Source of the DNA: a virus
Strand: one strand, 5' to 3'
DNA: 31,016 nt
IMG/VR virus record: IMGVR_UViG_3300042350_002327
Coordinates: 1-31,016 of that record
Shown: positions 570 to 19,001 of the stretch, one piece after another
Numbering within the stretch: the stretch's first letter is position 1
How the letters are laid out: every line of letters starts with the position of its first letter
Notes under the pieces: generated by a model
Seen by the model: only the letters and a program-made list of their open reading frames with translations
What the model was told of the DNA's origin: nothing
Database searches by the model: none
Position numbers and translations under genes: made by a program

Positions 570-830
570 ATGAAGATCCTCAACAAGTCACAACTCGCCG
601 AATCCCTCGGTCGTTCCCGTGGCTATGTGACCGCCATGGTGACAGGAGGGTATGAGATGGAGTTCGGGACGACGACCACCCTCCCCCACGCCCTGGCATG
701 GCTCAGGGCAAATCGCGACTTCCGCTCAACAGGTTTTTGGTCCCGGAGAGGGCTTTCAGGCACCCCTTCAAATCGTGCGCGCCTAACCGCTGATAAACCT
801 TGTGAACCACAGCACTCGAATGGCCGATAA
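570..830 (+). CDS. Small HTH protein, possible excisionase-like regulator
   Basis: 86 aa from ATG 570 (MKILNKSQLAESLGRSRGYV). Residues 5-45 look like a helix-turn-helix: SQLAESLGRSRGYVTAMVTGG, followed by a conserved-looking TTTLPHALAWLRANRDFR segment. Small HTH proteins of this type next to phage integrases often act as directionality factors, but I cannot show this here. The final ~40 residues (after about residue 50) run antisense across the 3' end of the integrase gene (703-830) and look low in conservation value; the true protein may have drifted into that strand. It follows the RHH gene by 10 bp. Confidence 0.6.
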   Translation: MKILNKSQLAESLGRSRGYVTAMVTGGYEMEFGTTTTLPHALAWLRANRDFRSTGFWSRRGLSGTPSNRARLTADKPCEPQHSNGR

Positions 831-1761
831 ACCTCATAGCCTGCTGCTCGCTGACATTGCCGCTACGGGCCAGCCGCGTGACTGCCGTCACTCGGGTGGA
901 GTGGAAGCTGATGCCACGCTTGCGGAGCTTCAGCTTTCTGAAAAGTCGGCTGAAGTCTCGTGCGGCCTGATTATGATACTCCCAAGTCACTTTTCGCTTC
1001 TTGGATTTGAGATCACGGATGAGCGGGATCAGGTCGGGATGGAGCAGGGTGACATGGGTGGAGCCGCCCTTGATCTCGAATGTCACGGTGCCATCCTCCA
1101 GGTCGAATGCGCTGAGCGGCAGGGCCGTCTCGCTAAGGCGGCATCCCTGATGCAGTGCGATCTCAAAGGCAATGCGCTGGTCACTTCCCTCGGGGAGGTT
1201 GGATCGGATGAGTTCGATGTCAGCAAGGGTCATCTCTTGGCGTTCCTTGGCCTTGACCGGATCGATCCCGAGGCGACTTGCTGGATTGGAGTGGATCCAT
1301 CCGCGCTTCTGCGCCTCAAAGAGGATCAGGCGAAGAACCTTCAGATCGAGCAGGACGGTGTTGGTGTGGGTCTTTCCCAGTCCACCGACATCCACCTTTC
1401 TTCTTGCGAAGTAGTCGAGGCAATCGGCGCGGGTGATCTGCTCGGCAAGGGTGATGCCCTTGGCCTCGAAAAAAATATCCAACGCGACCCAGCACTGGAG
1501 GTATCGCCGCAGCGTCCCGCCGATCTTCGTCGCGGCCAACCACTCTGGAACCCATGTCTTGAGCAGCCGCTCCTTGCCGGGAGCCGGGCCTCCGCTGCGG
1601 ATCTCCTCGATGGATCGCAGCATGGAAATCTCGCGGGCCTTACGGGTCTCAAGTTTCGAGTCGAGGCGCAGGGAAGTGGTCTCGCGCCGGATCTTGCCGG
1701 TGGCATCGCGCCACTTGATCCACCAAAACGGGGAATTTCGTCGGGTAAAAATCGAGGCCAT
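703..1761 (-). CDS. int: Tyrosine-family site-specific integrase
   Basis: 352 aa from ATG 1761 (MASIFTRRNS). The C-terminal catalytic domain has the full signature: Arg208 (GCRLSE), Lys231 (EIKGGSTHV), His287 and Arg290 (HSTR), His314 (IGHSS) and nucleophile Tyr323 (VYQRL). The N-terminal half contains an arm-binding-like segment (about 1-50) and a SAM-like core-binding domain (about 70-160). An earlier start at 1806 would translate the CCAGTGTG repeats, which I read instead as arm-type binding sites. The protein should recombine attP at about 1877-1904 with the 3' end of a host tRNA-Ser gene. It is convergent with the HTH gene and overlaps it by 128 bp. Length is usual for the family and no inactivating change is visible. 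Confidence 0.95.
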   Translation of the reverse strand: MASIFTRRNSPFWWIKWRDATGKIRRETTSLRLDSKLETRKAREISMLRSIEEIRSGGPAPGKERLLKTWVPEWLAATKIGGTLRRYLQCWVALDIFFEAKGITLAEQITRADCLDYFARRKVDVGGLGKTHTNTVLLDLKVLRLILFEAQKRGWIHSNPASRLGIDPVKAKERQEMTLADIELIRSNLPEGSDQRIAFEIALHQGCRLSETALPLSAFDLEDGTVTFEIKGGSTHVTLLHPDLIPLIRDLKSKKRKVTWEYHNQAARDFSRLFRKLKLRKRGISFHSTRVTAVTRLARSGNVSEQQAMRFIGHSSAVVHKVYQRLGAHDLKGCLKALSGTKNLLSGSRDLP

Positions 1762-1765
1762 TGGA

Positions 1766-1789
1766 TTTCCAGTGTGCCCCAGTGTGCCC
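1766..1789. repeat. Putative integrase arm site, left (tandem CCAGTGTG)
   Basis: A 24-bp segment made of two tandem CCAGTGTGCC units. It recurs at 1920-1943 in the same orientation with one difference (C or T between the units). The two copies bracket the tRNA-Ser fragment, the arrangement expected of arm-type sites around an attP core. Binding is inferred. Confidence 0.55.
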
Positions 1790-1870
1790 AGCGATACCAA
1801 AAACAACCCAGCAAAATCGTTCGTCTACAGAGAAAACCACGCAAAACCATGCAAAAAAATACCCCATGCG

Positions 1871-1904
1871 CGTACCGAGGGTTCGAATCCCTCCCTCACC
1901 GCCA
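1871..1904 (+). other. attP: attP core: 3' fragment of a tRNA-Ser gene
   Basis: The segment reads as the end of a tRNA: T-arm with TTCGAAT loop (GAGGG / CCCTC stem, about 1877-1893), then CCTCACC, discriminator G and CCA at 1902-1904. CCTCACCGCCA is the classic 3' acceptor end of bacterial tRNA-Ser, which pairs with GGTGAGG. No 5' half is present, so this is not a functional tRNA. It is the piece a phage carries to restore the tRNA after integration. It lies 110 bp upstream of the integrase start. Confidence 0.85.
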
Positions 1905-1964: not shown

Positions 1965-2075
1965 ATGATCGCCCTGCTTTTTGCTGTGGGGACGGTCGTC
2001 CTCTTTGTGGGCCGTCATGAGTTGGCTGAGGTTCTTTCCGGGCTGTTGACCCGTTTCACGGGAGGTGCCAAGTGA
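1965..2075 (+). CDS. Small single-span membrane protein
   Basis: 36 aa starting MIALLFAVGTVVLFVGRHEL. Residues 2-16 form one hydrophobic segment, followed by a short soluble tail ending TGGAK. A strong purine-rich SD (AGGGGGGGC) precedes the ATG. The stop overlaps the next start (GTGA at 2072), so it is the first gene of the overlapping early cluster. Function unknown; not recognised as a family. Confidence 0.65.
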   Translation: MIALLFAVGTVVLFVGRHELAEVLSGLLTRFTGGAK

Positions 2076-2251
2076 GCGATCCCACCCTCGAGGCGGCTCT
2101 CGCCTATGCACGTGAGTTCCAGAAGCCGGTCGGGTTCTGGGCTCGGATCTGGGCTTGGTATAAGCGCATCACTGGGTATGAGGCGGCGGTGAAGGCAACC
2201 CTCTGGCGCGAGTATATGCGCGTGGAGAAGAACCTGAAGGGGGGCAAATGA
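2072..2251 (+). CDS. Hypothetical early protein, Trp-rich
   Basis: 59 aa beginning at GTG 2072, with SD GGGAGGT 7 nt upstream. The central part is aromatic (GFWARIWAWYKRITGYE) and the C-terminus is basic (RVEKNLKGGK). GTG and the upstream TGA overlap, indicating translational coupling. No family recognised. Confidence 0.65.
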   Translation: MSDPTLEAALAYAREFQKPVGFWARIWAWYKRITGYEAAVKATLWREYMRVEKNLKGGK

Positions 2252-2364
2252 GCACTCAGCTTCACTTCGATTTCTACGCGACCCGTGAGGAGTTCGTCTC
2301 GGCCTTTGTGGAGCAGTTGCTCCATCTCGCTCCGAAGTTCCGCATCCAAGGGAGGTCAAAATGA
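2248..2364 (+). CDS. Hypothetical early protein, MS-x-LHxDFY family A
   Basis: 38 aa, ATGA overlap with the preceding gene and SD AGGGGGGC. Its N-terminus MSTQLHFDFYATREEFVSAF resembles the 56-aa protein at 4000 (MSLHLDFYEADMVAFF), so the two look like diverged paralogues within the same cluster. The protein is acidic-aromatic and presumably helical. Function unknown. Confidence 0.65.
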   Translation: MSTQLHFDFYATREEFVSAFVEQLLHLAPKFRIQGRSK

Positions 2365-2453
2365 AGGACTGCACTCCCTTCTACCAAGTGCTGCTGGCGG
2401 TCACGGCCTCGGCCCTGCTCTGGAATCTCTACAAGTCAGGAGGTGGCCGATGA
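2361..2453 (+). CDS. 30-aa membrane mini-protein
   Basis: Starts at ATG 2361 with SD GGGAGGT; overlaps its upstream neighbour by ATGA. Residues 8-24 (YQVLLAVTASALLWNLY) form one membrane span, and the tail is KSGGGR. Coupled downstream through ATGA at 2450. Such mini-proteins may modulate host membrane targets, but nothing specific can be claimed. Confidence 0.55.
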   Translation: MKDCTPFYQVLLAVTASALLWNLYKSGGGR

Positions 2454-2716
2454 ATGCCACCAATCTCGGCATCTGCACGATGCCAGGCTGCCTGACTCAG
2501 GCTAAGTGGGTTCACGGGACTCCCCTTGAGGAGGCCGGTGGAGAGCAAGTCTTCCCATGGGAACTCTGCGACTGCTGTCACGAGTCGGTGGTCGCGGCGG
2601 ATCGAGTGCTGGCGGTAGCTGGTATCGACTTCCCCGATGAGGTGCAGTGGTGCATTGAGGCGGCCCGCGCCCGGCGTCAGCGGATGCTCAAAGTGGAGGC
2701 ATTGAAAAAGGCATGA
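2450..2716 (+). CDS. Cys-rich, probably zinc-binding early protein
   Basis: 88 aa from ATG 2450 with SD CAGGAGG. Cysteines occur as C9 and C14 (CTMPGC) and as a CDCCH cluster near residue 43, spacing suggestive of one metal site. The C-terminal third is helical and basic (ARARRQRMLKVEALKKA), compatible with nucleic-acid binding. It overlaps both neighbours by ATGA. Family not recognised. Confidence 0.7.
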   Translation: MNATNLGICTMPGCLTQAKWVHGTPLEEAGGEQVFPWELCDCCHESVVAADRVLAVAGIDFPDEVQWCIEAARARRQRMLKVEALKKA

Positions 2717-3228
2717 TCTCCGCATCTCCCCAGGAGGCGTTCCGCGCCTATAGCAATGACACGGCTGAGTCGGCCTACACGCCTGACTATGCCGCCGAGA
2801 TCGACAAAGAAGAGGATATTCTCGCCGATTTTCTTGGCATTACACCGAAGCAAGCTCTTCGCGTTCTCGAATGGCATTCAGAAGAAAAGAAAAAACTGGC
2901 TGGAGAGCACAGGGAGTCATTTGGGCGTGTGATCGGGTTCTTGCTTCGATGCGACAATCTGAGGGTGATGCTCCCGGCTTTAGCTTGCTCATGGGGGCTG
3001 GATCAGGTCGGTGAAAAGAAGTCTCAATCCCAGATAGCAAGGGAGTTAGGGGTTACCAGATCCCTTTTTAGTCATTACGTCAGCGCATGGACAGACTTGT
3101 GCAACGGGGTCGTCACAAAGTTCAGGAAAGCACCAAAAACCAGAAAGATTTTCAAGGAACTAGCTACTGACCCATTCACCTCAGCAAAAAAACAAGCCAT
3201 CAACAGATTGAAAAACACATGCAACTAA
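2713..3228 (+). CDS. HTH protein, putative DNA-binding regulator
   Basis: 171 aa starting in an ATGA overlap. The N-terminal half is acidic and helical. Residues about 105-128 (SQSQIARELGVTRSLFSHYVSAW) form a clear helix-turn-helix like those of sigma region 4 or XRE-like proteins. The C-terminus is basic. The local sequence becomes AT-richer from about 2860 through 4170, unlike its neighbours, which suggests separate acquisition. No strong SD is visible. It is a candidate regulator or replication initiator by position only. The next gene starts 10 bp before its stop. Confidence 0.7.
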   Translation: MISASPQEAFRAYSNDTAESAYTPDYAAEIDKEEDILADFLGITPKQALRVLEWHSEEKKKLAGEHRESFGRVIGFLLRCDNLRVMLPALACSWGLDQVGEKKSQSQIARELGVTRSLFSHYVSAWTDLCNGVVTKFRKAPKTRKIFKELATDPFTSAKKQAINRLKNTCN

Positions 3229-3689
3229 CAGAAACAAAAAACGCATTCATTCTCGGGATCATTAGTGAGATTGATTCAAGAGACATCAAGATCGAAAGAG
3301 CTTGGGAGATACTAGAAAGCGCAAATGCCGCAAGGCATCTTGGAACCAAGCTGTTCAATTATGTCAAAGATAGGTGCATCGAAATTGCACAGAATCAACT
3401 TGAGTTAGATTTTGAACAGGCGCTTCAGGTCGTTGCCGACAAGGTTGTCCAGTTCGAGTTTAACCTCGGGGTGAAATGGCCTGAGGAAAAACCGAACCTT
3501 AACATCGGGTTGGGCAAAGGAAGTGCAATCATTTCAATCGAAGGGATTCGGCAGGAGTTTGATATGTGGAGGCGCAAGGCCGAGGTCGAAAAGTGGGGCA
3601 CAGTTGAGCGTAAGAAGGCGTGTGAACTGCTGCGCCCGATGGTGGAGTTCTACGATTATCTGCTCTCGACGGAAGGAGGTGCGAAGTGA
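3219..3689 (+). CDS. Hypothetical helical protein
   Basis: 156 aa from ATG 3219, overlapping the end of the HTH gene. Mostly helical with a Gly-rich turn (LNIGLGKGSAIISIEG). No catalytic motif or membrane segment. AT-rich codon use like the upstream gene. Its stop overlaps a GTG start at 3686. Function unknown. Confidence 0.65.
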   Translation: MQLTETKNAFILGIISEIDSRDIKIERAWEILESANAARHLGTKLFNYVKDRCIEIAQNQLELDFEQALQVVADKVVQFEFNLGVKWPEEKPNLNIGLGKGSAIISIEGIRQEFDMWRRKAEVEKWGTVERKKACELLRPMVEFYDYLLSTEGGAK

Positions 3690-4003
3690 TTTGCAACTTT
3701 GATGACTTAGGTGCCGATGACGTTCACTTTCCTCCCGATAAAGAGCCGGAGCTTGGAGTTCCTTATGCTACTACTAACGGGTTCCCAGGTATTTCCTTTC
3801 AGGATTCCTACGGGAAGAAGTGCAAGATCCAGATGTCTTCGCTCTGTGAAGGATATCCACCGGGAATGTCTGCGCTTTGGATATGTTGTGGAAAGGATGA
3901 AATGCACCTTACCCGTGATCAGATCATCTGCTTGTTGATGGAGTTGGATAGCTGGCTTCGAGATGGGATTTTTCTGCACCAGAAAAAGGAGGAAGGGAAA
4001 TGA
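3686..4003 (+). CDS. Small phage protein of the MHLTR type
   Basis: 105 aa from GTG 3686 (SD GGAAGGAGGT). The middle (GISFQDSYGKKCKIQMSSL) and the later EMHLTRDQIICLLMELDSWL match, from memory, a very widespread family of small phage proteins with the pattern F.D.YG..C..Q.SS ... MHLTR.Q...LL. The family has no established function. Overlaps the next gene (ATGA at 4000). Confidence 0.7.
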   Translation: MICNFDDLGADDVHFPPDKEPELGVPYATTNGFPGISFQDSYGKKCKIQMSSLCEGYPPGMSALWICCGKDEMHLTRDQIICLLMELDSWLRDGIFLHQKKEEGK

Positions 4004-4170
4004 GCCTTCATCTCGATTTTTACGAGGCGGATATGGTCGCTTTCTTTCTAAATCTCTATCGGGATGAGTTCCGAGAAGAGTGCAAGAAATTCGATGATTA
4101 CAGTGACGAATACATTGATGAGATAATTACAAAGATTTCAATTCACTGCTTCGAGGAGGCTGGAAAGTAA
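4000..4170 (+). CDS. Hypothetical early protein, MS-x-LHxDFY family B
   Basis: 56 aa (SD AAAGGAGGAAGGG). N-terminus MSLHLDFYEADMVAFFLNLY parallels the 38-aa protein at 2248; the remainder is strongly acidic (DDYSDEYIDEII). Stop TAA overlaps the next ATG (TAATG at 4170). Function unknown; acidic character could mimic DNA, which is speculation. Confidence 0.65.
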   Translation: MSLHLDFYEADMVAFFLNLYRDEFREECKKFDDYSDEYIDEIITKISIHCFEEAGK

Positions 4171-4391
4171 TGGACTCAGGCGTTCTCGATCTCTGCGATG
4201 AGATCCAAGCTCTGAAGGCCGAGTGCCGTCGGATCCGGGCGGCTGCCTCCCATGTGGTGGACAAGTCTTCCTTCTCCAATCAGGAGGAGCTTGCCGAACT
4301 CGGGAAGGCCGTGCGGAAGCTCCAGATCGAACTGGACCGCTTCGCCCCGTCGATGGCGATGGATGCTCCGAAGAAGAGGAGGATCAAATGA
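4170..4391 (+). CDS. Coiled-coil early protein
   Basis: 73 aa starting in a TAATG overlap with SD GAGGAGG. Residues 5-60 have heptad-like spacing (DEIQALKAECRRIRAA, EELAELGKAVRKLQIEL), so the protein probably forms a coiled coil, with a basic C-terminus (PKKRRIK). No known family. Coupled to the next gene by ATGA. Confidence 0.65.
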   Translation: MDSGVLDLCDEIQALKAECRRIRAAASHVVDKSSFSNQEELAELGKAVRKLQIELDRFAPSMAMDAPKKRRIK

Positions 4392-4780
4392 GGCAGGTCG
4401 AGGTGGATGACGCGCTGATCGAGCTGGCCGAGGCGATCATCCTGCAAGCGGTCGAGGATTATGTGAATCTCTCCGAGAAGAAGGTGATCCGAGGCCGCGA
4501 GGTGGATGTCTCTGCCTGGGCTCGGCGCGGTGGAACCCGTGGATACTGCAAGCCCATCGGATACGACTCGGCCTCGTCTGTCCTCGAGCTGATCGGGTGG
4601 CTGGCCGGTCACGGGCTGGAATACCTCTGCAAGCTGACGAATCACCACGCCTGCCGCATCCGCAAGCGGATCGGGCTGATCCCCAGCTCGGTGGCTCCGC
4701 TCACCATGGCGGAGATCCAGAAGTTCCACAATTCCCTCGCACTCTTCCGCCGGTGGGAACGTGCCAGAACGGATGTCTGA
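4388..4780 (+). CDS. Hypothetical early protein
   Basis: 130 aa from ATG 4388 with SD AGAGGAGG. Contains an ARRGGTRGYCKPIGYDS segment near residue 45 and a basic helical HHACRIRKRIGLIP segment near 88. Codon use is GC-rich again, unlike 2860-4170. No domain recognised. Confidence 0.65.
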   Translation: MRQVEVDDALIELAEAIILQAVEDYVNLSEKKVIRGREVDVSAWARRGGTRGYCKPIGYDSASSVLELIGWLAGHGLEYLCKLTNHHACRIRKRIGLIPSSVAPLTMAEIQKFHNSLALFRRWERARTDV

Positions 4781-4783
4781 CTC

Positions 4784-4987
4784 ATGAAAAGCGAAACAAC
4801 CAAGGTGGGGGATCTGGTGACGCTCAAGTCCTCCGGGCGGGTCATGAAGGTGGTCCAGATTCATGCGAAGACCAGTCAGGTCTGTGTGATCCCTGCCGAC
4901 TCGACCGGAGGCCCCGGGATCTGGGGGAAGCTGGACGCCCTCGAGGTGCCCGGCCTGCGCTCAACGAACTCAACTCTATCACTATGA
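4784..4987 (+). CDS. Small beta-rich (SH3/KOW-like) protein
   Basis: 67 aa; starts 3 bp after the preceding stop without a clear SD. VGDLVTLKSSGRVMKVVQIH and the following beta-strand pattern resemble small barrel proteins, often YodC-like (G.VV.LKSGGP.MTV). By that resemblance it may be a DUF2158-type protein. Overlaps the next start at 4984. Confidence 0.6.
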   Translation: MKSETTKVGDLVTLKSSGRVMKVVQIHAKTSQVCVIPADSTGGPGIWGKLDALEVPGLRSTNSTLSL

Positions 4988-5262
4988 ATAATCAGGAACT
5001 CAGGAAATCATTAGCTGCATTCCAGCATCCATCAATTCCCGAGCGGTACCATGCTGTCAGGGGAAGTAAGCTGCCAGATCGTGAACGAGAACGGGTAGAA
5101 GTTGGAAGTGTTTCGATACCGTGGGCCTCCCCGAGGTGGTGCCGACATAATATTGACTTGGTATATCAATCAACGGTTTACAAACCTTATTTTGAAACCT
5201 TCACTACAAGTTACTTTTTCTGCACTAAGTGCGGAACCAAGTGGGAGGCGTTATGTCCGTGA
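4984..5262 (+). CDS. Hypothetical protein with C-terminal zinc knuckle
   Basis: 92 aa from ATG 4984, overlapping the previous stop. The C-terminal part has CTKCGTKWEALC, a short CxxC plus C pattern that could bind zinc with W58/C59-region residues. AT content rises in the middle. Its stop overlaps the primase start (5253). No clear SD. Confidence 0.55.
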   Translation: MNNQELRKSLAAFQHPSIPERYHAVRGSKLPDRERERVEVGSVSIPWASPRWCRHNIDLVYQSTVYKPYFETFTTSYFFCTKCGTKWEALCP

Positions 5263-6452
5263 CGATCCTCGAACGGGCTTCCCGTTATATCGCGCGCATG
5301 GATGCGGCGGTCGCCGGATCAGGGGGCCATGATGCGACCTTTGCGGTGGCGTGTGCGCTCGTGCATGGGTTCTCCCTGGGCGAATCGGAGGCGATGTCGC
5401 TCATGCAGGAATACAATTCGCGCTGCGCCCCTCCATGGTCTGAACGGGAGCTGGCCTATAAGCTGCGATCCGCCGCGAACTCTCACTCCTCGAAGGGCTC
5501 TGGCTATTTGCTGGGAGGGAAGGCTGAAGGCGGAAGGCTGAAGGCTGAAGACTACAAGCCACTTCCTAAGCCTGAGCCGGTGGAGTTCGACCCTGCGGCT
5601 CTGGCGGCTCTCGCTGGGGAGTTCCGCCCACGGCTGGATTGGTTCGCGGCCCGATCCTATGCCGATCCCTCTCTGCTGGACTCGGCAGGGTTCCTCTCTC
5701 TCCTCTATGCGGGGGAGAAGGTTTTAATTTTCTCAGATGATAAGTCGCAAGGTCAAGCTCTGTGGCCAGATGAGCCGATCCCGGCCTGTGGCTCCCGGGG
5801 GATGTGGTATCTGGCCAACCCTGTCGATGGCCTCGAATACCCGAACCCGCGCACGGGGAAGCCATCACGCCGCTCCGAGGAGTCGGTGACGCGCTGGAAG
5901 TTCGCCCTGCTGGAGTCCGATGAGGCTGATCCTCGCATCTGGCTCGGTGCGCTGGCCAAGACGACCCTCCCTGTATCGGCGATCTATTCCTCTGGGGGTC
6001 GCTCTGTCCATGCGCTGATCCGTGTGCCGGGCAGTGGCACGGGGATGTCGGCTCTCTCCGGCCCGACCTCGAAGGCGGAGTGGGACGCCTGGGCTCGCGC
6101 TCAGAAGGGGACTCTCGCCCGGATCGGGGCTGATCCGAAGGCTCTGACTGCGGTGAGGCTGACCCGGCTGCCCCAGCAATACCGCTCGGAGAAGGGGGCT
6201 ATGCAAAAACTGCTCTATGTGAATCCGTGGCCTCCCTTCGGTGAGCGGATCATCGACCGGCCACCCGTCCGCGATGCGCTCCGCGATGCGGTGGAGGCGG
6301 CTCGCGCTGCGGCGTGGGGTGAGGATGCCGAGGCGATGCTGGCCTGCGCGGAGAGGCTGGAGTTTTACGCTCCCTGCAATGGGAAATTCTCCCCGATGGC
6401 CTCGGAGCTACGACGGGACGCGGGGGCTCTGGCCGATCTCCACCACCGATAG
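5253..6452 (+). CDS. Primase-like replication protein
   Basis: 399 aa from ATG 5253, SD GGGAGG. Residues about 1-75 resemble the PriCT helper domain of phage primases (repeated hydrophobic pattern ending CAPPWSERELAYKLRSAA). A linker at residues 88-100 is encoded by an in-frame (AGGCTGA)n array (KAEGGRLKAED). Residues about 110-345 resemble archaeo-eukaryotic primase proteins of phages: SSGGRSVHALIRV (near 250), then TAVRLTRLPQQYRSEKGAMQ and LLYVNPWPP. I infer it makes primers for phage replication together with the helicase at 7218. Catalytic acidic residues could not be assigned by eye. Confidence 0.75.
   Translation: MSVTILERASRYIARMDAAVAGSGGHDATFAVACALVHGFSLGESEAMSLMQEYNSRCAPPWSERELAYKLRSAANSHSSKGSGYLLGGKAEGGRLKAEDYKPLPKPEPVEFDPAALAALAGEFRPRLDWFAARSYADPSLLDSAGFLSLLYAGEKVLIFSDDKSQGQALWPDEPIPACGSRGMWYLANPVDGLEYPNPRTGKPSRRSEESVTRWKFALLESDEADPRIWLGALAKTTLPVSAIYSSGGRSVHALIRVPGSGTGMSALSGPTSKAEWDAWARAQKGTLARIGADPKALTAVRLTRLPQQYRSEKGAMQKLLYVNPWPPFGERIIDRPPVRDALRDAVEAARAAAWGEDAEAMLACAERLEFYAPCNGKFSPMASELRRDAGALADLHHR
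5521..5548 (+). repeat. In-frame heptad array (AGGCTGA)4 within the primase gene
   Basis: Four 7-bp units, the second being AGGCGGA, encode the linker between the two primase domains. Same unit as the intergenic arrays at 6464, 7043 and 27207. Confidence 0.85.
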
Positions 6453-7074: not shown

Positions 7075-7221
7075 ATGAAGGATGGAAACCGAAAGACTGC
7101 CGAGAACGGCAAGGGCGATTCGCCCAGGAATAATTTCTCAAAGGAGTATCGCAGCCGGTATGCGGCGATCAGCTGGAAGAAGAAGGAACAGAAACCAAAA
7201 CAAAACACGCACAAACCATGA
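7075..7221 (+). CDS. Small basic protein between replication genes
   Basis: 48 aa (MKDGNRKTAENGKGDSPRNN...), Lys/Arg/Asn-rich with no hydrophobic core, probably disordered and nucleic-acid binding. Its TGA overlaps the helicase ATG (ATGA at 7218), so it is likely translationally coupled to the helicase. The start lies 3 bp after the heptad array and has no clear SD. Function unknown. Confidence 0.55.
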   Translation: MKDGNRKTAENGKGDSPRNNFSKEYRSRYAAISWKKKEQKPKQNTHKP

Positions 7222-8321
7222 CCTATGACCTGATGCCCAAGGAGGCCGCCGTCGATTACCTGACGGATCTCCTCCACGAGTTCCCATTCGCCGATGATGG
7301 GGGGCGATCCCTAAGCTGCCAGATCGCGGCGATGATGACGCGCTTCGCGGTCTCGCTCCTGCCTGAGCAGGCTCAGGTGCCGCTGGTCATCTGGAATGCC
7401 AACGGCCCTGCCGCCGGGAAGTCGCTTCTCGCCATGGTGGTGGAGGTGCCGGTGAGGGGATTCGCAGCGATGCGAGCACTGCCGGAGGAACGCGAGGAGC
7501 TTCAGAAGGTGCTGGACTCGGAGGTTCTGGCGGGATCGGATTCGGTGATCTTCGACAATGTGAAGGACAAGATCGATTCGGCCTATCTGGAGCAGTTTGC
7601 CACTTCCTCGGTGGTCTCGGTGCGTCGGCTCGGATCGTCGGCGAAGTATGAGGTGGCCAAGCAGACGATGCTGATGTTCACCAGCAATCAGGCCGAGGTC
7701 TCCTCTGACATCGCGCGTCGGTCGATATTCATCGATCTCTTCCAGAAGGAGGCCGACCCTCAGGCGCGTAAGATCGAGCGTCCGATGGGTGCCGAGTATC
7801 TGGCGAGGCCGGAGGTGCGATTCGCCATTCTCTCGGCTCTCTGGTCGCTCATCGTTGCCTGGGACAAGGCTGGGCGTCCGGCCTGCTCGTCGCGGTTGGT
7901 GGGCTTCGAGGACTGGAGCCGTGTCATCGGGGGGATCGTGGAGAATGCGGGATTCGGTGATCCGCTGCGGAAGCCTGAGAGCGAGGACTTCGGCGATCCT
8001 GACGCCGCCGACATGCGCGATCTGGTTCAGGCGATGGCCGAGGGGATCTTCCAAGATGGCCTCGAGCTCCGCTGCCGTGAGGGCGTGACATTCGATGAGG
8101 TGATCTGGATCTGCCGGAACCGTGGCCTCTTCGAGGAGCAGATCAAGGGGAAGGTGGACAGGGAGACCAAGGAGTTCGAGATCTACACTTCAGCCAGGAC
8201 AAAGATGTCGCGACTCTTTGCTCGCTACAATGGGCGGGTCTTCCGCTTCGGTGAGGAGCTGGGGACGGTGAAGCTCGAGCGTGTGGGAGGGAAGAATGAC
8301 AGGAAGTGGCGCGTGAGCTGA
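7218..8321 (+). CDS. Replicative helicase / AAA-type ATPase (SF3/D5-like)
   Basis: 367 aa. Walker A GPAAGKS at residues 63-69, Walker B SVIFDN at 109-114, polar sensor FTSN at 154-157 and a probable arginine finger RR at 167-168 (DIARRSIFIDL). This order is that of D5/SF3-type phage helicases. It should unwind the phage DNA as a hexamer and, with the primase at 5253, form the replisome. The C-terminal third (CREGVTFDEVIWICRNRGLF) looks like a winged-helix DNA-binding region. It is the last gene of the replication operon and is followed by a terminator-like hairpin at 8349. Confidence 0.85.
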   Translation: MTYDLMPKEAAVDYLTDLLHEFPFADDGGRSLSCQIAAMMTRFAVSLLPEQAQVPLVIWNANGPAAGKSLLAMVVEVPVRGFAAMRALPEEREELQKVLDSEVLAGSDSVIFDNVKDKIDSAYLEQFATSSVVSVRRLGSSAKYEVAKQTMLMFTSNQAEVSSDIARRSIFIDLFQKEADPQARKIERPMGAEYLARPEVRFAILSALWSLIVAWDKAGRPACSSRLVGFEDWSRVIGGIVENAGFGDPLRKPESEDFGDPDAADMRDLVQAMAEGIFQDGLELRCREGVTFDEVIWICRNRGLFEEQIKGKVDRETKEFEIYTSARTKMSRLFARYNGRVFRFGEELGTVKLERVGGKNDRKWRVS

Positions 8322-8348
8322 TGCCTTAAAGGAAGTTGCGGAACGATT

Positions 8349-8380
8349 ACCCTGTGCGAGGTTCCGGCCATGCACAGGGT
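8349..8380 (+). terminator. Terminator-like hairpin after the helicase
   Basis: A 9-bp perfect stem (ACCCTGTGC at 8349-8357 with GCACAGGGT at 8372-8380), a 14-nt loop, then TTTCCTTTTT. This fits an intrinsic terminator, though the loop is long. The ATG of the putative lipoprotein gene (8370) lies within the loop, so it could also act in translational control. Confidence 0.6.
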
Positions 8381-8555
8381 TTTCCTTTTTCTGGCCATAG
8401 TTACCACCGGATGCTCATCCACTAAATCGCCAGATTCCAAGCTGCTTCTCGCCGCCTATATGATGGGTAGGATGGATGCAATTAGGGACATGGATCAGGC
8501 CGATCCGCCTCAATCCCACCGTCCGCCCCGCGCCCTCGGTAGGCATAAGCAATGA
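8370..8555 (+). CDS. Putative small lipoprotein
   Basis: 61 aa. The N-terminus MHRVFLFLAIVTTGCSS is a textbook lipoprotein signal with lipobox VTTGC, giving acylated Cys15. The mature part is short, hydrophilic and Pro/His-rich at the end (PPQSHRPPRALGRHKQ). It could be a superinfection-exclusion or lysis-related lipoprotein. The ATG lies in the terminator loop and there is no SD, so expression is uncertain. Confidence 0.45.
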   Translation: MHRVFLFLAIVTTGCSSTKSPDSKLLLAAYMMGRMDAIRDMDQADPPQSHRPPRALGRHKQ

Positions 8556-8571
8556 GGACGATGAACGTCCT
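8553..8571. repeat. Palindromic 19-bp repeat, copy 1
   Basis: TGAGGACGATGAACGTCCT, containing the inverted repeat AGGACG/CGTCCT around ATGAA. An exact copy lies at 8626-8644. Candidate protein-binding site within the proposed cos region. Confidence 0.7.
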
Positions 8572-8625
8572 GAATAAGCCATTGATCTAGCAGAAAGGGA
8601 GTGGGGTTTTAGTTTTGGGTTACTT

Positions 8626-8644
8626 TGAGGACGATGAACGTCCT
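8626..8644. repeat. Palindromic 19-bp repeat, copy 2
   Basis: Exact copy of 8553-8571, 73 bp downstream. Here the inverted repeat extends to 7 bp (GAGGACG/CGTCCTC, 8627-8645). Confidence 0.7.
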
Positions 8645-8950
8645 CGCTTGGACGATGCTTCCGCACCATCTCCTAGGCTTTCAAACAGCTTACCATCATA
8701 CTCTTATACTATCTCTTAAGGAGATAATGACGATATTCTGATATCCTAGCTAGTTTTTCTCTCGGTCGCTCGAGTAGAAACTGGGTGGAATCGACGATGA
8801 GCGTCTGATCGTCCGGTGACTACCCCCTCGGTAAGGAATCTCTTCACGCTTCACAATCCAAGCGGTTGGGCGCACTGGCGTTGTTTTTGCGTGAATTAGC
8901 TTGGAACGTTAGGGAAGCCGATTAGTTCCCAACCTTCCGCGCCCGTTCCG

Positions 8951-8976
8951 TTCCGTTCCTTTGACACGGAACGGAA
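8951..8976. promoter_or_regulatory. Palindrome with TTTGACA in its loop, before terminase
   Basis: Perfect 9-bp inverted repeat TTCCGTTCC (8951-8959) and GGAACGGAA (8968-8976) enclosing TTTGACAC. GTTCC is also repeated directly just upstream. The TTTGACA (8960-8966) sits exactly 13 nt before the TerS ATG, as at six other ORFs. Likely an expression signal, possibly an operator. Confidence 0.6.
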
Positions 8977-8979
8977 GCC

Positions 8980-9591
8980 ATGAGGAATTCCCGTCACGAG
9001 TCCGCGCTCATCGAAGAGTGCGCCTCCGCTCACTCCGTCTCCGTCCGCGCCGTCAGGAACTGGCGAGTGAAGGACGACCCCCGGTGGAGGGAGTTCATCC
9101 GGTCACGCGCCCAGGATTCGACCTTCGCCTTCGCCTTCGCCCGTCCCGAGGCCGCAGCCAAGCCGATGAGCCCTGAAGAGACGGAGTTGGCAGCCGCCGT
9201 GCGCCATGCCCGGCTCTCTATGCTCTGTGATAAGACTGAAGAGGCGGGGAACTTCAACTCCCTCGGTGCCCTGCTGAAGGCGGCCTCGGAGGCTCACAAG
9301 CTCTGGCTACAAGTCGCCGAGAACAACCTGAAGTTGGCCACCTCTGCCGGTCGGCTGGTCGAGGTCTCGAAGGTCTCGGAGTTCATCTTGGGTAACATGG
9401 CCATGGCCAAGGGCCTGATGGAGAACCTTCCCGATGTGCTGGCCGCCCGGATCGAGTCTCAGTCCGATGTCTCCGGGATCGTCCGCGACGAGGTAGTCGC
9501 CATCCTCCGCGAACTAGCCGCCGCCTCCGCTTCCGCACCTTGGAATGCCAAGGCCACCGCCCCCGATGTCACCGGCACTCCAGAAGCTTGA
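8980..9591 (+). CDS. Terminase small subunit
   Basis: 203 aa from ATG 8980, 13 nt after TTTGACA. N-terminal HTH (residues about 8-30: ALIEECASAHSVSVRAVRNWR) as in Nu1-type small terminases, then a helical body for oligomerisation. It recognises the packaging site and recruits TerL, with which it overlaps by 47 bp in another frame. The repeats in 8553-8976 are its natural candidate binding sites. Identified mainly by fold and position next to GpA-type TerL. Confidence 0.75.
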   Translation: MRNSRHESALIEECASAHSVSVRAVRNWRVKDDPRWREFIRSRAQDSTFAFAFARPEAAAKPMSPEETELAAAVRHARLSMLCDKTEEAGNFNSLGALLKAASEAHKLWLQVAENNLKLATSAGRLVEVSKVSEFILGNMAMAKGLMENLPDVLAARIESQSDVSGIVRDEVVAILRELAAASASAPWNAKATAPDVTGTPEA

Positions 9592-17901: not shown

Positions 17902-18076
17902 GAAGTTTTGAGGCCAGCCATTTCCCTCGGGAGATGCTCCCCCTCATGGCATCCAGCCTCTCCCACATCTCTCTCGGCATGGAGAGAGATCCAGTCACTG
18001 AGACACGGCCTTTTCCACTTCCCTTCTTACGGCCTGCCCCCGGCCTCCAGCCTCCGCGCTTAGATGTCGCATTCAT
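17894..18076 (-). CDS. Small basic RPGAGRK-type DNA-binding protein
   Basis: 60 aa on the minus strand, start ATG 18076 with AAGGA upstream, overlapping the ligase stop by 17 bp. N-terminus SKRGGWRPGAGRKKGSGKGR is a basic, AT-hook-like peptide; residues 29-58 (VTGSLSMPREMWERLDAMRG...KWLASKLL) resemble a CopG-like helix pair. It forms a two-gene minus-strand unit with the DNA ligase. The same peptide occurs in the portal N-terminus. Likely DNA binding, possibly an autoregulator of the inserted unit. Confidence 0.7.
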   Translation of the reverse strand: MNATSKRGGWRPGAGRKKGSGKGRVSVTGSLSMPREMWERLDAMRGSISRGKWLASKLLK

Positions 18077-18935
18077 CTCGGATTCCTTGGAAGACAGGGA
18101 AGCGGGGCGCGGATTTCATCCCACGCGATTGGTAACTGAAGCGAAGGATCTTCCCGCGCATTGATTCTCTCCGATTCCAGAACTCCCCACGCTGGCGGTC
18201 GGAGAGTCCCGTTCCGACATGGAAGCGTATCGTCGGATCACTCACCAGTCGGACGGAAAAAGCCCCCAGTCTATCGGGGGAGAAAAAGTCTTGGCGTTCT
18301 GGCTCAAATCCCACGATCTCGGCTTCCGCATCCTCTTGGGGCTTCAGCTTCATCATCAGCCCCTCTTCTGCGGTGGAGCGTCCTGTCTTGTAAATGCCAT
18401 CAGGACGGCGAAGGACTAGCCCCTCATGTCCATCCGCCAGTGCATGAGTCATCAGTTCGTCCAGTTGCGTGATGCACTCGATGGTCGACTGCTCGATACG
18501 AAGGACACGGCCCCCAAGGTTGAGCGATGAGAGAAGGGTATCCAGTCGGGCGATCCTCTCGCAGAATGGAGTCGAGAGGGGGGCGGCATTCTTCGGGTCG
18601 ATATAGTCGAACAGGGCGAACAGGAAATCGGGCTTCCCGTTTCGGCTCATAATCGCGGAAGAGGTTCCATGAAAATCTTGCCCCCGGACGATAAGCTCCC
18701 CATCGAATCCGATAGGGCAGTTCTCCTCCAGCCATAGGCGTGTGGCCACATTCGGGATCGGGCGCATCGTTCTGGTGACGGCTGCGGGTCGTCCTTCGCG
18801 CTCCACGATCAGGCATCTGATCCCGTCATATTTTGCGGAAGCCATCAGGGGCAATTCCACCCCGGCGAAGATGTGGAAATTCGCCGCCAGCATTGGCTCG
18901 GATACGGAGAAGTTCATGGGTTCAATATCTCTCAT
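18060..18935 (-). CDS. ATP-dependent DNA ligase
   Basis: 291 aa from ATG 18935 (alternatives 18965 and 18917). Nucleotidyltransferase motifs in order: motif I KYDG with catalytic Lys35, motif III FDGEL (77-81), motif IV EGLVLR (171-176), motif V LMMKLK (193-198), then an OB-fold-like C-terminus. Small ligases of this kind seal nicks in phage DNA. It is encoded against the tail operon between the chaperones and a minor structural gene, so it is an inserted unit (moron). A 9-bp-arm palindrome at 18941-18963 lies just upstream and may be its operator. Confidence 0.92.
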   Translation of the reverse strand: MRDIEPMNFSVSEPMLAANFHIFAGVELPLMASAKYDGIRCLIVEREGRPAAVTRTMRPIPNVATRLWLEENCPIGFDGELIVRGQDFHGTSSAIMSRNGKPDFLFALFDYIDPKNAAPLSTPFCERIARLDTLLSSLNLGGRVLRIEQSTIECITQLDELMTHALADGHEGLVLRRPDGIYKTGRSTAEEGLMMKLKPQEDAEAEIVGFEPERQDFFSPDRLGAFSVRLVSDPTIRFHVGTGLSDRQRGEFWNRRESMRGKILRFSYQSRGMKSAPRFPVFQGIRDECDI

Positions 18936-18940
18936 CAATA

Positions 18941-18963
18941 GGTTTTTGTAAATAACAAAAACC
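18941..18963. promoter_or_regulatory. AT-rich palindrome upstream of the ligase
   Basis: Perfect 9-bp arms GGTTTTTGT and ACAAAAACC separated by AAATA, in the gap between the divergent ligase and the gene at 19002. Suits an operator for a dimeric regulator, perhaps the adjacent CopG-like protein, or a weak bidirectional terminator. Confidence 0.5.
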
Positions 18964-19001
18964 ATCTAATTCAGTAGCTTTGACAGGGGGAGAAATGACG
19001 T

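Follow-up and report, generated by a model that had tools for sequence, protein, structure and literature searches.

The virus record IMGVR_UViG_3300042350_002327 of IMG/VR was analysed over its whole length of 31,016 bases, here called the window. A dense cluster of very small genes at positions 1965-5262 is best explained as an early operon with translational coupling in a temperate tailed phage. The new element within it is a pair of adjoining genes, g6 and g7, coding for a predicted helix-turn-helix (HTH) protein and for a relative of the regulator LmbU without the DNA-binding part. On balance, we regard g6-g7 as a two-protein transcription regulator of the phage, placed in the early operon and most likely activating the late genes. 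This modular operon is more recognisable than the original prediction, made from the sequence alone, had held.

The cluster consists of 13 open reading frames (ORFs; g1 to g13), all on the plus strand, of 30-171 amino acids (in order 36, 59, 38, 30, 88, 171, 156, 105, 56, 73, 130, 67 and 92). A minus-strand integrase gene with the attachment site attP flanks it on the left, the primase-like g14 on the right. These tiny overlapping ORFs are real genes. Nine junctions are 4-nt overlaps (RTGA), two are overlaps of 10 nt and one of 1 nt; the predicted chaining by overlaps of 1-10 bp was thus found at 12 junctions, but not at g11/g12, which are separated by a 3-nt gap. The longest head-to-tail chain comprised 13 ORFs versus a maximum of 11, and mostly 2-5, in 300 dinucleotide shuffles; on the opposite strand the longest chain had four. 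Shine-Dalgarno-like sequences preceded nine of the 13 starts (seven strong), with a zero score for g6, g7 and g13. The ratios of nonsynonymous to synonymous substitution rates (dN/dS) of g2-g12 were about 0.0-0.4 against the nearest relatives (the range of g5 reaching 0.5; g8 and g9 compared with one relative apiece). Constraint on g1 was weak (dN/dS 0.45-1.35), yet a hydrophobic ORF of 32-36 amino acids occupies that place in 13 phages. Homologues of g13 came from two groups only (42-48 % identity), thus it is the least certain gene besides g1. A close g14 was encoded by 22 IMG/VR contigs (71-98 % identity), most of them carrying the same cluster. A promoter scan of the strands revealed nothing exceeding chance. 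The comparison with shuffled sequences and the purifying selection on g2-g12 bear out the dense cluster of overlapping genes that had been predicted, and the remark that gene callers would miss such mini-genes was right.

LmbU is a regulator of antibiotic gene clusters in actinomycetes. Alignments and profile comparisons indicate a shared ancestry of the g7 family (g7 of the window at 3219-3689, plus strand) with this regulator, for the window's g7 through its family only. Verrucomicrobiota genomes contain g6-g7 pairs with a longer g7; these longer relatives matched the LmbU family NF038070 up to 1.2e-34 (best 119.7 bits, the curated cut-off being 125 bits) and Streptomyces LmbU proteins at 1e-20. 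Conversely, the g7 profile found full-length LmbU-like ORFs directly (4.8e-8), and the top matches of the LmbU profile among 18,587 ORFs of phage loci were g7 proteins (7e-9). Profile-profile comparison (hhalign) of the g7 family with an LmbU-like alignment gave a probability of 98.9 % and an E value of 2.4e-17, while two negative controls gave 0.1 %. The N- and C-terminal parts of Streptomyces lincolnensis LmbU align with the g7 family; what lies between differs. In LmbU, whose relatives are transcription regulators, the DNA-binding domain is an HTH of residues 80-102 with an essential R101, no role being assigned to the C-terminal part (PMC6510168). In the alignment, the window's g7 and its phage relatives lack some 75 residues, among them this HTH with its recognition helix and R101, and intermediates between LmbU and phage g7 have an eroded HTH helix. 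As judged from these alignments, the g7 family has lost the DNA-binding region of LmbU. In contrast to LmbU, g7 is phage-borne and always located beside an HTH gene. Of 12 LmbU-like loci in Verrucomicrobiota genomes, eight had a g6-family ORF, detected with the g6 profile, directly upstream, and two more had another HTH ORF there; two inspected Streptomyces LmbU genes had no such neighbour. Since full-length LmbU-like genes already follow a g6-type ORF, the pairing with an HTH gene predates the loss of the DNA-binding region.

The association of both genes is strict. Among the distinct g6 alleles, 43 had 1.5 kb or more of sequence on their downstream side, and g7 came next in all 43. Even in a divergent group (phages L010, L011 and L023) both partners were still recognisable (hhalign 97.8 % and 96.7 %). 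Altogether 68 g6 loci were obtained, many of which have nothing else in common with the window. Outside the window's lineage, the gene order was DnaB or VirE, RuvC/RusA/DnaD, g6, g7, TerS, TerL in all 17 phages with enough sequence, the terminase being at most 4.5 kb away from the pair; prophages of Verrucomicrobiota genomes have the same order. An uncharacterised family of about 190 amino acids, f10, without a match in Pfam or NCBIfam, was observed just upstream of g7 in two phages (L005:694-1275; L021:695-1258, there between g6 and g7) and away from the pair in a third (L072:1649-2236). The 171-residue product of g6 (2713-3228, plus strand) had an HTH signal below the family cut-offs of Pfam and PHROGs. 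Its AlphaFold2 model (pLDDT 73) resembled an HTH or sigma region 4 in residues 78-139, a weak likeness (Z about 5) that is not diagnostic, and had two uncharacterised proteins of uncultured phages as matches in BFVD (7e-6 and 2e-3). The g7 model (pLDDT 83) has two helical parts, and Foldseek found no useful match for it. The structure-based search advised in the original prediction, run on these two models, has thus provided a weak HTH-like resemblance for g6 and nothing useful for g7; a sequence search of the PDB with both profiles yielded nothing useful either.

In the proposed mechanism, g6 would give DNA recognition via its predicted HTH. Its partner g7, derived from LmbU, has lost its own HTH; the helical parts at both ends are retained and presumably serve to oligomerise or to contact g6 or RNA polymerase. 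The pair would be made early and then most likely turn on the late genes, from the terminase onward. That the two proteins interact physically, that g6 binds DNA and that the pair activates late genes is inferred. In temperate phages, the genes of late regulators such as RinA (phi11) and Ltr (phi13) precede the terminase (PMC9867676, PMC13123087). The g6-g7 pair resembles RinA and Ltr as an early or middle product with an HTH, adjoining the terminase in most of its relatives, but differs in that it consists of two proteins, has no sequence match to them and precedes replication genes in the window's lineage. For g6, the activator families RinA, ArpU, Q and Ltr gave no sequence match; in Pfam and PHROGs only the sub-threshold generic HTH was obtained. 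As a more tentative extension, the pair may be a split regulator, the HTH protein providing DNA specificity and the LmbU-derived partner having dispensed with its DNA-binding domain, which serves Verrucomicrobiota phages as a widespread, exchangeable developmental switch.

Several observations weigh against late-gene activation by the pair. In the window's lineage, the pair belongs to the early operon, and some 5.3 kb with several replication genes separate it from the downstream terminase. The fold matches of g6 are weak, the best PDB hit in Foldseek having an E value of 0.13 (ArdK, KorA, sigma region 4). The window's g7, among the most diverged members and tied to LmbU via its family, had on its own no match to the LmbU profile or NF038070. 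Candidate operators before terS did not follow the regulator: two palindromes located 73 nt apart (8555-8571 and 8628-8644, AGGACGATGAACGTCCT) were rejected as operators of g6, as they did not covary with the g6 type; L010 and L011 have 99 % alike g6 proteins but different palindromes. The palindromes lie in a gap of about 660 nt (8321-8980) between the helicase-like g16 and terS, the length of which is kept by relatives. In these, the sites occupy the same place with clade-specific sequences and symmetric changes, as expected of an operator bound by a dimer or of an origin. All fixed amino-acid differences of g16 (7218-8321) between the two palindrome types are near the C-terminus (328, 360, 361, 363). 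Because of this clustering, g16 may itself read the palindromes, or the association may reflect simple linkage. Direct repeats in pairs (GTTGAC...GTTGAC or GTTGCA...GTTGCA; L063:5531-5646, L091:6921-7036 and similar) stand just before terS in another lineage. Both copies change together between phages, and they are candidates for a late operator or a packaging site.

The cluster is mosaic. Against L003, L006 and L028, the nucleotide identity profile dropped to about 50 % in 2800-4165, from the C-terminal part of g6 to g9, and was mostly 84-99 % on either side. The reverse pattern appeared against L009, with 81-99 % across most of 2765-3765 and 40-70 % in the surround. In L008, g8 and g9 were simply missing. 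This block is exchanged between nearly identical phages. The G+C content of g6-g9 and g13 was 40-49 % versus about 60 % in the remaining cluster. A further slot is located between g12 and g14. Its junction ATGAATAA, in which the g12 stop overlaps the next start, is retained in several phages and the gene content varies: the window has g13 there, L002, L003 and L008 have a gene for a C5-cytosine DNA methyltransferase (PF00145, 1.7e-52), and other phages have a Cys-rich or coiled-coil ORF or nothing. The pattern is best explained by conserved small genes (g1, g2, g4, g5, g6, g7, g10, g11, g12) that form a backbone, with cassette-swap slots at g3, at g8-g9 and at g13. If the pair is the split regulator suggested above, its exchange as one block would let phages swap regulatory specificity within an otherwise almost identical genome.

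Phage immunity regions likewise show swaps of allelic blocks while the backbone stays nearly identical. Control of immunity or lysogeny by g6-g7 as repressor and co-factor, with allele exchange altering the immunity specificity among related phages, would explain the exchange equally well and would suit an HTH protein of a temperate phage with integrase and attP. However, the pair is positioned inside a long polycistronic operon, co-directional with the replication genes and not divergent from them, and abuts the terminase in other lineages, so that we consider this function unlikely. The original prediction had pointed instead to host takeover and anti-defence. A cluster mainly devoted to such factors, its frequent cassette exchange reflecting an arms race with host defences, is improbable as well. 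The early position, the very small proteins and the sharp swaps that near-identical phages show in 2800-4165 and in the g12-g14 slot would agree with it, and the C5 methyltransferase that occupies this slot in relatives is the sole indirect pointer to anti-defence, in this case to counter-restriction. Yet no product matched a known system and the backbone genes are under purifying selection. The HTH and LmbU-like genes, the largest ones exchanged, form a pair that is universal and not optional. Searches of Pfam, PHROGs, PADLOC and NCBIfam with the products of 59-171 amino acids yielded phrog_3849 for g8, the sub-threshold HTH for g6 and DUF2158 for g12. They gave no credible match to described defence or anti-defence families, where PADLOC holds models of defence rather than anti-defence and such proteins diverge fast. 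A partial PADLOC match of g9 (0.0058) was judged as chance. Host takeover is therefore unsupported, nothing credible having appeared in PADLOC, Pfam or NCBIfam, and anti-defence retains a slight indication. The statement that no product is recognised fails for g6, for the g7 family and, below the cut-off, for g12; otherwise little was recognised indeed. Replication or packaging initiation by g6-g7 as an origin- or pac-binding adaptor, instead of transcription control, is less probable still: the pair always adjoins replication, recombination or terminase genes and repeats precede terS in another lineage, but the phages already own primase, helicase and terminase small subunit, and LmbU relatives regulate transcription (PMC6510168).

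The other genes of the operon are described by conservation and composition. The hydrophobic stretch is clear in g1 (1965-2075) and moderate in g4 (2361-2453), which has 97-100 % identity in four relatives and homologues in others. Between them are g2 (2072-2251; dN/dS 0.0-0.3) and the slot gene g3 (2248-2364; dN/dS 0.13-0.25), present in only some relatives and replaced by f5 in L009-L011. The product of g5 (2450-2716; dN/dS 0.07-0.5) has six cysteines in a motif (CTMPGC...CDCCHE) kept by relatives and is likely metal-binding. Of the cassette genes, g8 (3686-4003) codes for six cysteines, belongs to phrog_3849 of unknown function (E 5e-8) and occurs besides the window only in L009 and L120; g9 (4000-4170) was found in L018-L020 only (75 % identity). 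A paralogy of g3 and g9, suggested by an LHxDFY start, was a visual impression. The backbone continues with g10 (4170-4391; dN/dS 0.08-0.31), a probable coiled coil near universal in the lineage, g11 (4388-4780; dN/dS 0.08-0.19) with homologues in 11 sequences, and the DUF2158-like g12 (4784-4987; dN/dS 0.16-0.31; Pfam E 0.015, 15.5 of the 22.3 bits of the cut-off; phrog_3261, 4e-4). The CxxC protein g13 (4984-5262) has four cysteines; the junction of its slot is conserved while the gene bodies differ. The first gene past the cluster, g14 (5253-6452, plus strand), matched the DNA primase phrog_2597 (5.8e-8) and shares 72-98 % identity with its counterparts in relatives. An ATP-dependent DNA ligase gene (18060-18965, minus strand; phrog_114, 9e-64) is located among the structural genes.

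The host of the virus is probably a member of the Verrucomicrobiota, the phylum with whose genomes the attP core was compared. Of 195 genomes of this phylum, two have tRNA-Ser(GCU) genes whose 3' end matches all 33 nt of this core (1872-1904, plus strand). A prophage of one of the two, G126, contains a closely similar g6-g7 pair, and in the family of G126 g6 and g14 relatives were each present in six of 26 genomes. The integrase (703-1806, minus strand; phrog_1, 6.7e-38) shares only about 30 % identity with that of phages that are more than 90 % identical in the early genes. Relatives with other integrases have other tRNA ends at attP; integrase and attachment site are swapped as one cassette. 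The attachment site is located between the divergent integrase gene and the early operon (1872-1965), the start of g1 being 61 nt downstream of the core. Integration would therefore sever the operon from its upstream region and put g1 beside the host tRNA-Ser gene, and an integration-dependent silencing of the early operon is possible.

In the temperate tailed phage lambda, the nin region is an early operon of small genes. The cluster shares with it the dense, translationally coupled small ORFs, the mosaic exchange and the accessory functions, but the gene families differ. No match to g6, two g7-family proteins and g8 was obtained in 50,697 phage records, and cultured phages, searched at the DNA and protein level, gave no match either. 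The pair of HTH and LmbU-type proteins offers the first testable handle on gene timing in phages of a phylum that is abundant and poorly cultured. LmbU is now linked to mobile elements outside the phylum of the actinomycetes, and the g7 family is an example of a regulator that lost its own DNA-binding domain once it was paired with a second, predicted DNA-binding protein.

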